NCBI RefSeq assembly: GCF_029633865.1
Contig: NC_079213.1
Location: 108,940,561 to 109,004,560 of the forward strand
Reading direction: 5' to 3'
Length of the DNA: 64,000 bases
Source of the DNA: Lampris incognitus
Taxonomy: Eukaryota; Chordata; Actinopteri; Lampriformes; Lampridae
Position numbers and translations under genes: made by a program. Below the pieces are notes generated by a model that was given only the letters and a program-made list of their open reading frames with translations, did no database searches and was not told where the DNA came from. Below are positions 33,801-42,800 of this stretch, piece after piece (position 1 is the stretch's first letter; each line of letters starts with the position of its first letter).

Positions 33801-36800
33801 AATGTTATAATGGTGGATTTAAACTTTATTGCTTTTCTAAGTGGTCAGCATGCCTGTAGGCGAGCATTGGCAGCTGATGAGTGCATGACGCACGAAACAA
33901 GCTTGTACTGCTATGTATTATTTTTTTCCCTCTATATATATATATAGTATATACTATATATGTATATAAAGTGGGCCAATCACTTAATGGCCTCAGACCT
34001 TCTCTCCATCCAGAACTAATTGATCGTGTCCACACAGTAGGTGTCTTCGATCTTGTAGAAGGTGACTGGACTGACGACTCTGATGTTCATGAAGCGGAAC
34101 AGGGGGGCAAGTTTAGTGTGGGTGTTACTGGTCAACAGGATGTTCGTTGCAAGCACGAAGTCACTTGCAAAATCCACAACTTCCAAGATCGGCTGTGAGG
34201 ACCAACTCCAGACAACATGACCATGAGGACAAACTTAAACAGAAAAAGACATTTATTAACTTCTGGGATGAACAGCTATGAAAACGTCGCTCCGAGAGGT
34301 AAATGTGGATAATTTTTGATAAAGCACTTTACACATTCAGGAAACCAATTACAATTGACAAACATAGACAGACAACTACTAATTATGGTAAGGTTGTTAG
34401 GCTATGAGAATTAACCATTCAACAGCAAAGGCAGTAAAGCTTTGTTAAACGAGACACTCAGATGGGGGGAGGCTTTGACACAACAGTCCAGTCGATATTG
34501 TGTGGCGACTGGAAGGTGAACAAATGTAGCCAGCTCACGTATGTTCTCTTCATAAATGATGGATGCAGGGGAAACAACGATGTCGTCTTCAACCATGATC
34601 TTGTGAGGCTCTGTAATAAGAGGCAAATCACCCAATGGAGGCATCTCCTCAGCGGGTGGTCCAAGGTTCTCAGGGAGTTCAGTGATGGACAGATTGTCAA
34701 TCTCTGGCCTTGTGTCCATAGCGGCTCCCAAACTGTACGACCGGTCTCGTAGCCCTTTCGCCCCTGACGCGTCAAGTGTAGTCTCTCAATCACATCTTGG
34801 TCAAGCTGTTCGACACCGTCCTCGTGGAATTGTCCCTCCCTGCAAACACATTAGATGACAATATAAGGTATCAACGCTGTGAAACAAGAAATTGCAGCGT
34901 TGCACGTGATCGGCAAGAAAAAAGCAAAGTTACACAGGTTCAGAGAGACGGCGCTTATCAATACCCCTTACCGATCAGAATCTGAAACCTCGCCAACACT
35001 TGACAAATCAGGAGGCATGACTCTCAAAGCGAGCAGTCTTCGACGGTGTTGATTCAAAAGGGCCCTTTTCGTAGCTGAAAAAAAAAGGAAAACGGTTCAC
35101 GTCATTACCAGTTTCATCTGGGTTTCATCTCTAGCCCAAGAACTTCTTTCCATATCAGAACCGAAGAGGTGACAAATTTGGCCACAGTGACTATAAGGCT
35201 CAGTTATGCCACCCCGATGCTATCTGTGGCATAGCGCAGCTTGGGTCAAAATACGCCATCAGCCCAGATGAGCTTGGAGTTGACTACCATCAGGGGCGGA
35301 TCTACGGGGTGGCAAGGGGTGGCAGTTGCCACCTCTGGGACACAGTCTTGCCACCCCATTTAGAAATCAGATAATATGTTTTTAAAGTATATTTTATGTA
35401 CATGCATGGTGAAGGTGAATGAGACCCCGCACCAAACTCATCTCAAACAGAAGTCGCCGATTTAGAATCCCCCCTCCCCCTCACAGGGGCGGATCTACAG
35501 GGTGGCAAAGGGGTGGCAGCTGCCACCTCTGGGACACAGTCTTGCCACCCCAGGAAAAAATCTCTAGATCCACCACTGACTACCATCCATTGTCTAACTG
35601 TATTTTGTCATGGCCAATAATACACAGCAAAATCAAAAGTGTCTAATACTAGTGCCATCTTCTCCACTAGCTTACTTAGAGCATGTGGGCATAAAATAGA
35701 AAAACCCACGGCTAGCTAAGCTTAGCTACATTTTCATCATGGCCTATTCAGCTGTACCGTCTCAAAAATATATTCCAACACGGCTCTGATCTGCTAGATA
35801 GCTTAGTGGCAGCAGTTGGACGTAATTATAATAGAACAAACAGGCGACAATGGTTGGTAGGCCACGCCCACCTCATTTTTGGCTGACTGCATGTTTTGAC
35901 CCAAGCTATCGGTACCAGGCGTGGGTTGACCCTGCAGCTAGCCCGAGAATAGCCTTTAGAATAATGTTAGACCAACGAACTGGCTAGCATAACTACAGGC
36001 TACGACGAGGCTTGCGAAATCAGTACACGAACGTGCAAAGTAATGCATGCTCATTTACAACCCGAGTATGGCAAGCCCTGTTAACATTCATTCACTGACT
36101 TACGTCAGTGGGGGGTTGGGCTAGCTAATAAATCTTAAAAACGCTTGCCATAGTTTTGACTAGGCGAAATGACGTTTGAGATATCTGTAATTACGCCAGT
36201 GGGAGGCGGGACTAGTGTAAACCACTAATAAGACACGTTAGCCCCTAGCTAGCGGGTCTGACCCTTTAGCCGAGCGGTTAGTGACGTCGCCTTGTGGGGC
36301 AGTACACCCCGTATCGAATCCCGCACCGGGCAAGAAAATAACCGGTTACATTGGTGGCAGCGGTGGGATCCGGAAGTGTGCAGATCCTCAGAAGTCTCTT
36401 CGGAGCGCGGGAAGAACAAAGCGCGAGGGCGCGCTTCCGGGAGAGGGTGACGACTGTAAACTAGAACATAACCGGTTACATTAATACTAGAAAATAACCG
36501 GTTACATTATGTGGGGGAGGGGCGTCGGCTCTTTGAAGCTTATCCACATGATGGCCGTCTCCTAGCAACGGCGCTCAACTTTGTATCAACCGAACGCTTG
36601 TCTCCGCCCTCAATCTGGCCGGAAGGCTGAAGTGCGACATTACACTACGGGGTGGGCCCGGACAGACAGACAACCGGTTATTTTCTAACCGGTTATTTTC
36701 TTGCCCGGTGCGGGATTCGATACGGGGTGTACTGCACCACAAGGCGACATCAATAACCGCTCGGCTAAAGGGTCAGACCCGTTAGCTAGGGGCTAACGTG

Positions 36801-39800: not shown

Positions 39801-42800
39801 GCCCCCCGAATTCGCTACATTGGTGTCAGAAGTGGGATGGAGCGACCGGAAGCGTAGGCGCCTTGAGGCGTGAGGGAGCTGATATGCTTAAGCGCGGGGT
39901 AGTAGTGGAACGTGCATGGATAAGTAGACACGTTGGTCCTTGACTAACGGGTCGGGCCCTTTAGTCGACTGGTTAACGTTGTCGCTTGCGGTGCAGGAAA
40001 TAGGGGTTCGCGTCCCGGCTGTGGCGGTTCCCGGGCTGCCCCCCCGAATTCGCTACAGTGTTACGTTTGTGGGAAACGTACTGCGCTAGTGGGATTATTA
40101 CAGTAAAAGCTGCAGATTTGTATTATGTCTGTGGTTTACTGCATTAGTGGGGATGTTGTCAAGTCTGCGGGTCCGACGCGATTCAAGGGAAAGACGTCTG
40201 TGACGCGCCTCAGATGAAACGAGACGAGGCCCTTGTATGAGATTGGCTTTTCTAATGAAAGGAGCTGAACCCAAAACAAAATTAGAACCGAAATATGCAC
40301 AATTACGCCTAATGGCGGAAGTGTTAGCAGAAAGATCTGCCGTGCAGCGTAGTCATTATCCGCCGCACAAAAGCCAGGCTGCACTTGCCTCTGCTGGATT
40401 ACTGGCTCATGATTGTCAGAGCAAAGTAAAGGTAGCTGCAGGAAGCAAAATCAATCACACATCCCTCATCTGTCTGAAGTGCCATGAACAGGATGTTAGG
40501 GATGCGGGGTGTGTGTGTGCGTGTGTGCGTGTGTGTGCGTGTGTGCGTGCGCGCGCTTTCAAGAGCCTCTGCATCACTCCCAGGCATACCGACAAACACT
40601 CAACTCGCCATCTTTTTCCGGTGAACATACAGATTTCTATGATGTGCAGAACAGCGCTTCACGTCAGAGCAGCAGTAGATAAACACTGCCTGGGACGGCC
40701 GAGACCCTCCGCTCCCCTTCTCCTGGCGAGTGGGTGGGCTTATCAGTGGCGCAGATCAGTGATTAATGTGGACTCGGGCTGTGAGGAGGAGACTAAGGAA
40801 GTCTGTGTGTGTGTGTGAGCGAGATAGATAGAGGAAGACAGCCAACAGCCATTGAACAGGGCGCACAATATGATGAACCCCTGGCGGCCAACGCGCACAG
40901 CTCTGGTTGATAAATGCACACTTCTGATTATTTCTGGTCAGCAGAAAGAGAAGGGAGAAGAGGGGGGGGGCGGGGTTAACGCCATACCGGTAGCGGTGAT
41001 GAGATTTAACTCTTCATGCGAAATAACCCTGAAGACGGCATAATAACACATTCAACAACTCATTTTTGCAAAGGACAACATAACCTTTTCTGTAGTTTTA
41101 TCCATAATCAGTCTCCACTGGTAGCAAAGGAGGGTGGGGGGGGGGTTCACATTTTGATGGTTCGATCTGATTGGCTGGAGGTAAATGGACGTGTCTGATT
41201 ACCAGAGGTGGGAAAAACCCGGTCCAGAAAGTAAAAACCCTAACTGTGTCTTTACTCCACCCATGTACTAAACCATCAGATTGCACTGACTAGTTTCCCA
41301 ACTTAGCTGGTTTAATACATGGATGGAGTAAAGACACGGTTAGGGTTTTTACTTTCTGGACCGGGTTTTTCCCACCTCTGCTAATTACGTCACGAGTATT
41401 ACAAAAGAAAAAGGGGGCTCCGTCTTACAGGGTGGCATCAAGCACAACACACGTGTCTTTCCGGACCGACTCGTTGTTCCGCCCAGCTCCCGCGTTGTTC
41501 ACACAGCGAGGGAACTCGCGCCCACCCGCGCGCCGCGCTGGTTTTGAAACGAGGCGCGCGGTCAGGAGCGTCGTTATCGCGAGGCGGCGCAACCGACCGA
41601 CCAAAAAACCTGGTCTACGCTCAACGGTGCAGTATTTCCCCACTGTTTAAAGCAGGGGTCCCCAATAGGCGGCCCGCGGGCCACGTCCGGCCCGTGACGG
41701 TTTGATTTATGGTCCGCGAGAATTTTTGGAGAAATGCCAGAAGGAAGATTTCTTTTTTATTTCCCTACCAAAAATAAAATAAAATAATTAATTTCTTAGT
41801 AAAAGTAAGACTAGTAATATATCGAAAAATAGATGAAAAATCTCTGTTTAAATTATAATACCTGCAACGTATCGACACCGAAACCAACTAACGAGCAACA
41901 TGCTGCTGGAGGTTGAGTGGCCCGTGGTTTTAAAAGTGGCCCTAAAAGTGGCCCGCTATGAGAAGTAATCGGGGACCCCTGGTTTAAAGGGTGCATTTTT
42001 CAGACAGCAGTGTGCACCTACGAAGGCAGGCGCACAACGCGCGAAACTGAAAAAACAAAAACACGTCACGTGATATAATTGCAATCCAACCACGGTGCAC
42101 GCACACGTGGGTTTTAAAGGGGACGGCATATGACGCCGATTGGTTTATGTCATGCTCCGCCCAAAACACACCTATGATTCATTTAGTGCGACCCTGTGCC
42201 AGAGGCGTGACCACGGGTGGGCCTGGCCTGTCACAGGCCCACCCATTTCAAGCCCAGGCCCACCCAATCACGCTGGCTTACAAGCACGTAGGCCGGCCCC
42301 TTTTACGTACGTAGAACTGCAAAATGTGAGCGCGCGTACCGTCACGCTCTGTGTTTTCCACTGCTGCTAACTAGCCAATAGCCAACAGTTAGCCATAACT
42401 TATGGGATGGCGAAACAAAGTTCAATCTTCCGCTTTTTTAAAAAGCCACGGATGGAGGAGGAGGAAAGCACACCTGCTACAGCACCGACTGAGCCGCCCA
42501 GTGAGAGTGAGATACCGCCGGAGAGGAGGCAGAGGAGGCTACAGCTTCTCCGTTGCAGGCAGCTTCTCCTCCTCCCCCCCTCTGACGACGGTGAGGCGAT
42601 TCCCTTGACCAGGGGTCCCCAATAGGCGGCCCGCGGGCCACGTCCGGCCCGCGACGGGTTGATTTATGGTCCGCGAGAATTTTTGGAGAAATGTCAGAAG
42701 GAAGATTTTTTTTTCTTTCCCTACCAAAAAAAAAAATTTTCTTAGTAAAAGTAATCACTAGTAATATATTGAAAAATAGATGAAAAATCTCTGTTTAAAT

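Follow-up and report, generated by a model that had tools for sequence, protein, structure and literature searches.

Helenus elements are terminal-repeat retrotransposons in miniature (TRIMs) that carry tRNA-derived sequence in their long terminal repeats (LTRs), measure 311–1263 bp and form tandem arrays (Kojima 2024, PMC10886601; all that we say of this paper refers to the accessible part of its text). Animal families have 4-bp target-site duplications (TSDs), the primers in vertebrates are tRNA-His, -Leu or -Lys, and the zebrafish family LTR-11_DR amounts to 5575 LTRs and 2618 internal regions (PMC10886601). The link of animal Helenus to gypsy elements is based there on primer-site similarity, with partners named for insects and bivalves; transcription by RNA polymerase III (Pol III) is not demonstrated in that text either, and neither gypsy–Helenus chimeras nor a named vertebrate partner appear in it. 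Here we describe a 64-kb stretch of the genome of the fish Lampris incognitus (assembly GCF_029633865.1, contig NC_079213.1, 108,940,561 to 109,004,560; hereafter the window, to whose whole length all coordinates refer), which contains three related families of short LTR elements, A, B and C. We consider it quite probable that these are Helenus TRIMs co-packaged in the particles of Ty3/gypsy elements, and that a misdirected plus-strand transfer produced the chimeras of the two kinds of element that we observed in this genome (1.48 Gb, 537 contigs).

Such chimeras address the question of how TRIMs that lack genes and have a Pol III promoter are mobilised. We found no description of gypsy–Helenus chimeras in the open literature, judged by titles and the openings of abstracts, and descriptions may exist elsewhere. 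The initial annotation of the window had considered a vertebrate counterpart of such elements to be not well described; this no longer holds, since Helenus, the zebrafish family LTR-11_DR included, was published in 2024 (PMC10886601, accessible part).

Helenus families and their gypsy chimeras

Families A and B recur in the genome as LTR–internal–LTR elements with TG...CA ends and a constant 4-bp TSD. After removal of duplicates, 39 two-LTR elements of A and 33 of B were scored from fetched genome loci (labelled in the style of L001). They are gene-less and span 358–382 bp in A (n=39; LTR 135, internal region 104, LTR 135 bp) and 403–432 bp in B (n=33; LTR about 151–155, internal region 105–117, LTR about 151–155 bp). 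The TG start is present in 37/39 A and 33/33 B elements, and the CA end in all 39 and all 33. An exact 4-bp TSD flanks 22 of the 39 A and 20 of the 33 B elements (shuffled flank pairs give means of 0.80 and 2.93), and if one mismatch is allowed the counts rise to 30/39 and 27/33; other lengths remain at background (3 bp, 0/39 and 0/33; 5 bp, 1/39 and 0/33). The primer-binding site (PBS) lies just 3′ of the 5′ LTR and is kept in most copies listed, and a purine tract precedes the 3′ LTR, adjoining it in B (GGGGGGTAG directly before TG) and consisting in A of GGGAGAGGG followed by TGACGAC. The LTRs of the two families are homologous, with 78–82% identity over about 72 bp. The proposal of two related TRIM families copied in the LTR style is supported. 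A third related family in the window, C, has an LTR of 157 bp, and at one locus (L093) a C LTR is followed by an internal piece that is 98% identical to the B internal region over 64 bp.

The median distance between the two LTRs of an element (Kimura two-parameter, K2P) is 0.038 in A (39 elements) and 0.040 in B (33 elements). Blocks classed as single LTRs, a class that includes copies with a truncated partner LTR, have an exact TSD in 2/28 cases in A and 7/15 in B, and tandem arrays of three to five LTRs have an exact 4-bp TSD in 2/3 cases in A and 0/3 in B. The searches scored the best 40 of 2486 first-look candidates for the LTR plus internal region of A, of 3524 for B, of 1932 for the A internal region alone, of 1307 for a 519-bp query from gypsy element H and of 529 for gypsy element K, so that counts of elements and chimeras come from samples of the best matches and should be read as minimum numbers or as shares of the sample. 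Of the 40 A internal regions scored, 24 are 100% identical over the whole query; as these are the top-ranked 40 of 1932 candidates, the identity is no proof of present activity, and that argument was dropped.

A longer LTR, foreign to Helenus, is joined to Helenus sequence at 11 sites: six with an LTR that we call H, four with K and one with G. The H LTR stands upstream of B sequence (L021, L022, L033, L037, L072 and L077; L030 and L033 are one site). The K chimeras (L082, L088, L101 and L103) represent 4/74 distinct A internal regions, and the G chimera, at 37603–38149 of the window, is composed of the G block, a primer site, a leader resembling those of B and C, and a B LTR. A fifth A internal region (L095) likewise has no Helenus LTR before it; the sequence there matches dispersed repeats of the window, and this locus was left out of the count. 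Where the joints can be placed, they lie mostly at the end of the PBS. In L072, L022 and L033, the end of the 18-nt H PBS is joined to the point right after the B PBS, and L037 resembles this type in a decayed state; in L077 the joint is likewise at the PBS end and leads onto the purine tract GGGGT, and in L021 it lies inside the H LTR. The foreign LTR is present from its TGTAGCC start in L021, L022, L033, L072 and L077.

An exact 4-bp TSD spans the entire chimera in six of the nine testable cases, that is, those with both ends readable, H, K and G together: TGTG in L021, TATG in L072 and again in L077, CTAT in L033, ATAT in the G chimera of the window and CCAG in L082. Outside these nine stand L037, which is cut at its 3′ end, and L022 (contig C59, about L022:1170–2070), where a Helenus block lies within an H-like element and separates the primer site of gypsy H from its leader. 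At L033, the purine-tract end of H stands before the H LTR, which is therefore a 3′ LTR, so a 5′ H LTR was expected one element length upstream. This prediction held: an H LTR starts 6807 bp away (L119), with CTAT before it, and CTAT is found again beyond the last Helenus LTR, the internal part between the two H LTRs lying outside the fetched sequence.

Unlike LTRs also occur within the Helenus families. Of 54 distinct B internal regions, five lie between a B LTR on the 5′ side and a C LTR on the 3′ side (L014, L015, L016, L017 and L074, that of L016 being a mosaic), and L034 has the C LTR upstream and the B LTR downstream. Four of the five (L014, L015, L017 and L074, not L016) have an exact 4-bp TSD. 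The four largest LTR–LTR distances among the 33 B elements range from K2P 0.255 to 0.331. Because normal LTR copying makes both LTRs alike, elements with unlike LTRs need another explanation too; homologous recombination into resident solo LTRs was considered, and it is disfavoured by the H, K and G chimeras in which unrelated LTRs are enclosed by one TSD.

What are the donors? The H LTR starts with TGTAGCCGGG and extends for about 0.87 kb to CGGGCTACA, after which comes the primer site TGGTACCAGGAGTGGGG, which we take to be of the tRNA-Leu UAA type. H is an element of its own: among the best 40 of 1307 candidates, all of which are 100% identical over the 519-bp query, there are nine LTR pairs 6802–6810 bp apart and two others 5623 and 2061 bp apart. 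An internal piece of H (L114) forms one open frame with an RVT_1 match (E=1.2e-38), and its best matches among solved structures are 4ol8 (8.5e-71) and Ty3-G 7q5b (9.9e-70). The K LTR has 253–257 bp with AATAAA or a close variant; K LTR pairs 6012 and 5229 bp apart were found among the best 40 of 529 candidates, and a solo K LTR (L087) is flanked by CAAG on both sides. The internal piece of one K copy has an RVT_1 match (E=4.8e-39), with 4ol8 (1.7e-54) and Ty3-G (1.6e-53) as best solved matches. The K leader opens with 19 nt identical to the A internal region, at its PBS stretch, and then diverges, with only 8-nt words otherwise in common. Of the three donor LTRs, H and K come from elements that encode a Ty3-like reverse transcriptase.

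The tRNA-like core and the primer sites

The LTRs had been annotated as holding a tRNA-like core. When we scored them against A-box and B-box consensus sequences, with 1000 dinucleotide shuffles per family as background, the A/B-box pair at tRNA-like spacing on the plus strand was equalled in 19 (A), 21 (B) and 0 (C) shuffles, and on the minus strand in 391, 446 and 379. The box pair on the sense strand supports the idea of a promoter motif like that of a short interspersed element (SINE) within the LTR of an element copied in the LTR style. Families A and B each break one of the two box motifs given in the accessible part of PMC10886601: in A, box B reads GTATC in place of GGTTC, and in B, box A reads TAGTC in place of TRGCY. 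The share of the commonest base is 0.979 and 0.986 in the boxes of A vs 0.970 in the rest of the LTR (118 LTRs), and 0.988 and 0.984 in those of B vs 0.965 (74 LTRs). From the A- and B-box motifs alone we infer that Pol III may transcribe Helenus in this genome.

By comparison with human tRNAs, the PBS of the family at 36216 presumably fits tRNA-Leu(AAG) and that of the family at 39409 tRNA-Leu(CAA); the CAA and AAG labels of the initial annotation would then be swapped, if its family A is the one at 36216. Past the primer site, the A internal region (36351–36454) contains a 13-mer, AGTCTCTTCGGAG, that matches in the sense orientation what we take to be the variable arm of human tRNA-Leu(AAG), the presumed primer, and we treat this as a lead only. 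A shared word of at least 13 nt was reached in 1/500 shuffles. A related word in the internal regions of A and B, which had also been suggested, was not upheld: the longest common word after the PBS has 9 nt (CGCGCTTCC), and 33/500 shuffles reach at least 9. A hairpin around CGCGCTTCC as a packaging signal was likewise dropped, as the internal regions fold ordinarily (z −0.44 to −0.65) and the 9-nt word is not significant.

How the chimeras may have formed

How might these composite insertions have arisen? We propose that Pol III would initiate in the Helenus 5′ LTR and that the RNA would enter particles made by Ty3/gypsy elements with primer sites of the leucine-tRNA type. There, the gypsy enzymes would copy it, with a tRNA-primed minus strand and a plus strand primed at the purine tract, and the integrase would insert the DNA, duplicating 4 bp of the target. 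Within some of the particles, the second strand transfer, that of the plus strand, would go astray to another molecule. The DNA transferred at this step, plus-strand strong-stop DNA, comprises a whole LTR plus 18 nt copied from the primer tRNA, and HIV-1 data suggest that an intermolecular second transfer is possible (PMC5651808, accessible part). If the strong-stop DNA of a gypsy element, with its whole LTR and copied primer site, paired with the primer site of a Helenus minus strand, or even with its purine tract, extension would yield a gypsy LTR, the PBS, the Helenus internal region and a Helenus LTR, integrated as one unit. Such mispairing would lead to a foreign LTR, a primer site and another element's internal region and 3′ LTR, with the joint where we see it. 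The chimeras with the Ty3-like H and K, and the single exact TSD around six of the nine testable chimeras with H, K or G, lend indirect support to a possible mobilisation of Helenus by gypsy elements.

Alternatively, the chimeras might not stem from reverse transcription, and elements lying next to each other might have been combined once they were in the chromosome, through DNA recombination or the nesting of one insertion in another. Nested copies and tandem arrays do occur here, recombination has been proposed as one source of tandem LTR arrays (PMC11899658, accessible part), and at L022 a Helenus block is followed by the H leader. We regard this origin as quite unlikely, in that exact 4-bp TSDs span ends with unrelated LTRs in six of the nine testable cases, the joints fall repeatedly at the end of the primer site, and H and B have too little sequence in common for ordinary homologous recombination. 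Copy choice, in which minus-strand synthesis changes its template from Helenus RNA to gypsy RNA, could also have made the chimeras, and template switching has been invoked for complex insertions with TSDs in Triticeae (PMC1950507). It seems unlikely for the chimeras described here: five of them (L021, L022, L033, L072 and L077) keep the start of the gypsy U3, which strong-stop DNA (U3-R-U5 plus 18 tRNA-copied nt) would explain, whereas copy choice would need read-through RNA from upstream of the LTR, because genomic RNA normally lacks the 5′ U3.

The identity of the elements can also be questioned. A tRNA-derived SINE family mistaken for LTR elements would account for the tRNA-like promoter motif and the short length; the TG...CA ends, the constant 4-bp TSD, the PBS, the purine tract and the LTR–internal–LTR plan make this hardly credible. 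It is very unlikely, too, that the box motifs are coincidental and the elements ordinary TRIMs transcribed by RNA polymerase II (Pol II) rather than Helenus. The departures of A from box B and of B from box A, the lack of matches to tRNA models and the merely marginal box conservation in A favour coincidence; against it stand the sense-only box pair at tRNA spacing in three related families and a published class, with fish among its hosts, that has the same plan.

Several observations weigh against misdirected plus-strand transfer between Helenus and gypsy as we propose it, or limit its reach. Rfam, at E up to 10, gives no tRNA match in 36100–40100 or 51700–51950, and ARAGORN finds no tRNA at the LTRs, its sole tRNA in the window lying elsewhere; the tRNA-like core first annotated is supported by the box motifs and their spacing. 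Box conservation is weak in A, where 96 of 2000 randomly drawn sets of 22 columns are at least as conserved as the boxes on average (12/2000 in B). Sense-strand TTTT is absent from 36/39 A and 31/33 B copies, yet composition leads one to expect this in about half of simulations; selection against a Pol III stop was dropped as a reading of this scarcity, since 53–55% of first-order Markov sequences also have no TTTT. The B targets are mostly NTAN, so that chance 4-bp matches are likelier in B (2.93/33 in shuffles). Three of the nine testable chimeras are without an exact TSD (L088, CTAC/GTAG; L103, CATG/CAAG; L101, CTAC/GTTT, the 3′ end of which is a fold-back), and the joints of the K chimeras are not exactly placeable because K and A have the 19-nt stretch in common. 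The H leader and purine-tract end have only short words in common with Helenus, and the single H copy with flanks read (C9) has TGAA/TAAT and no TSD, which leaves the position of the H LTR 3′ end insecure. Because most searches scored only 40 candidates, the rates given here are not genome-wide.

With these points weighed, we still favour misdirected plus-strand transfer in shared particles. Because chimeras with a single TSD are physical evidence of joint copying, a genome sequence is enough to draw up a list of candidate gypsy partners, and H and K would be such candidates. More tentatively, two or perhaps more Ty3/gypsy families of this genome, at least H and K and conceivably a third, may have Helenus in their particles although they are unrelated to one another, jumps of strong-stop DNA may render a visible share of its copies chimeric, and Helenus sequence inside a gypsy element, as at L022, could be carried by a Pol II transcript. 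If so, a passenger such as Helenus would change promoter and driver in a single step.

Elements of the window and comparison with known systems

The LTR-like blocks, PBS-like stretch, short internal region and purine tract lie where they had been annotated, and the three loci proved more complex than plain copies. The family at 36216 does recur as LTR–internal–LTR; the copy at 36216–36818 itself runs from a forward LTR through the internal region and a rearranged insert to an inverted LTR. Its 5′ LTR (36216–36350, plus strand; 135 bp, TGTAAA...TTACA) has an A-box-like TAGCCGAGCGG at LTR positions 52–62 and a B-box-like TATCGAATCCC at 97–107. The internal region (36351–36454, plus strand) begins with one spacer base and the 18-nt PBS TGGTGGCAGCGGTGGGAT and has the purine-rich GGGAGAGGGTGACGAC before the start of the 3′ LTR. 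At 36455–36685 come the first bases of the A 3′ LTR, two 18-nt pieces of the LTR 3′ end and a segment (36512–36670) for which a genome search gave no other full copy, and then LTR positions 1–133 in inverted orientation (36686–36818, minus strand). Because the right-hand LTR is inverted, both outer ends are U3 ends. CTAG flanks the whole (36212–36215 and 36819–36822), and the flanking sequence occurs once more at about 36098–36152, where it continues through CTAG without interruption. Two other copies end in an inverted U3, L104 (TTAC/TTAC) and L101 (CTAC/GTTT, with K as the 5′ LTR). A self-primed fold-back before integration fits these copies; the LTRs of A and B are predicted to fold with a long stem near the start, and their overall folding is ordinary (z −1.33 and −1.44).

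At 37603–38149, a B LTR forms the 3′ LTR of a chimera (37999–38149, plus strand), the 5′ LTR of which is not Helenus: block G (37603–37933, plus strand; 331 bp, TGTAGCG...GCCACA, with AATAAA inside) is dissimilar to the Helenus LTRs. Between them (37934–37998, plus strand) lie the PBS-like TGGCGTCAGAAGTGGGAT, of leucine type, and a leader that resembles the B/C internal region and ends in GGTAG; ATAT flanks the chimera on both sides. The third locus, 39409–40057, belongs to family B and is a tandem array of three LTRs and two internal regions, all on the plus strand. LTR 1 (39409–39559) has an A-box-like TAGTCGACTGG at LTR positions 57–67 and a B-box-like GGTTCGCGTCC at 100–110, and is followed by internal region 1 (39560–39664; PBS TGGTGTCAGAAGTGGGAT in most copies listed, purine tract GGGGGGGGTAG), LTR 2 (39665–39819), a shortened internal region 2 (39820–39905) and LTR 3 (39906–40057). 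The outer flanks, GTAT and GTGT, agree in 3/4 letters. Family C is represented by a 157-bp LTR at 51729–51885 (plus strand), the one with the box pair matched by none of the 1000 shuffles, by another LTR at 48624–48779 (minus strand) and by a C-like match at 49755–49880 (plus strand; query LTR_B, positions 1–126).

Elsewhere in the window, a long tandem repeat at 8922–10731 reads in frame as repeated CVLSLDI-like words, and open frames at 20134–25456 resemble, by eye, parts of the endonuclease and reverse transcriptase of a non-LTR element. The tRNA-Asp called by ARAGORN at 7239–7323 is probably the head of a SINE, because a repeat matched at several other places in the window covers part of it. 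An open frame at 45072–45506 (minus strand) resembles what we take to be an exon of a BRINP-type vertebrate gene.

How do these elements compare with known systems? By description, they share with Helenus, as presented in the accessible part of PMC10886601, the TRIM size, putative tRNA-like sequence in the LTR, the PBS and purine tract, the 4-bp TSD, a presumed leucine primer type, tandem arrays and a fish host; the gypsy chimeras are seen here and not in that text. Cassandra, a plant TRIM, likewise has the promoter of a small-RNA gene in the LTR of a gene-less element and forms tandem arrays (PMC7215508, accessible part). Its promoter is derived from 5S, whereas Rfam searches gave no 5S match here. 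The complex insertions of Triticeae are also composites with one TSD that were made before integration; their outermost LTRs are alike, in contrast to the end LTRs described here, which come from unrelated families (PMC1950507). In HIV-1, a second transfer to another molecule has similarly been deduced from LTR mosaics (PMC5651808, accessible part). There, the transfer is between two co-packaged HIV-1 RNAs, whereas here it would be between a gypsy element and an unrelated short one, and the chimeras thereby bear on whether the second strand transfer remains within one molecule. The kind of element is already known; what looks new is the copying mechanism that the gypsy–Helenus chimeras have left in DNA.

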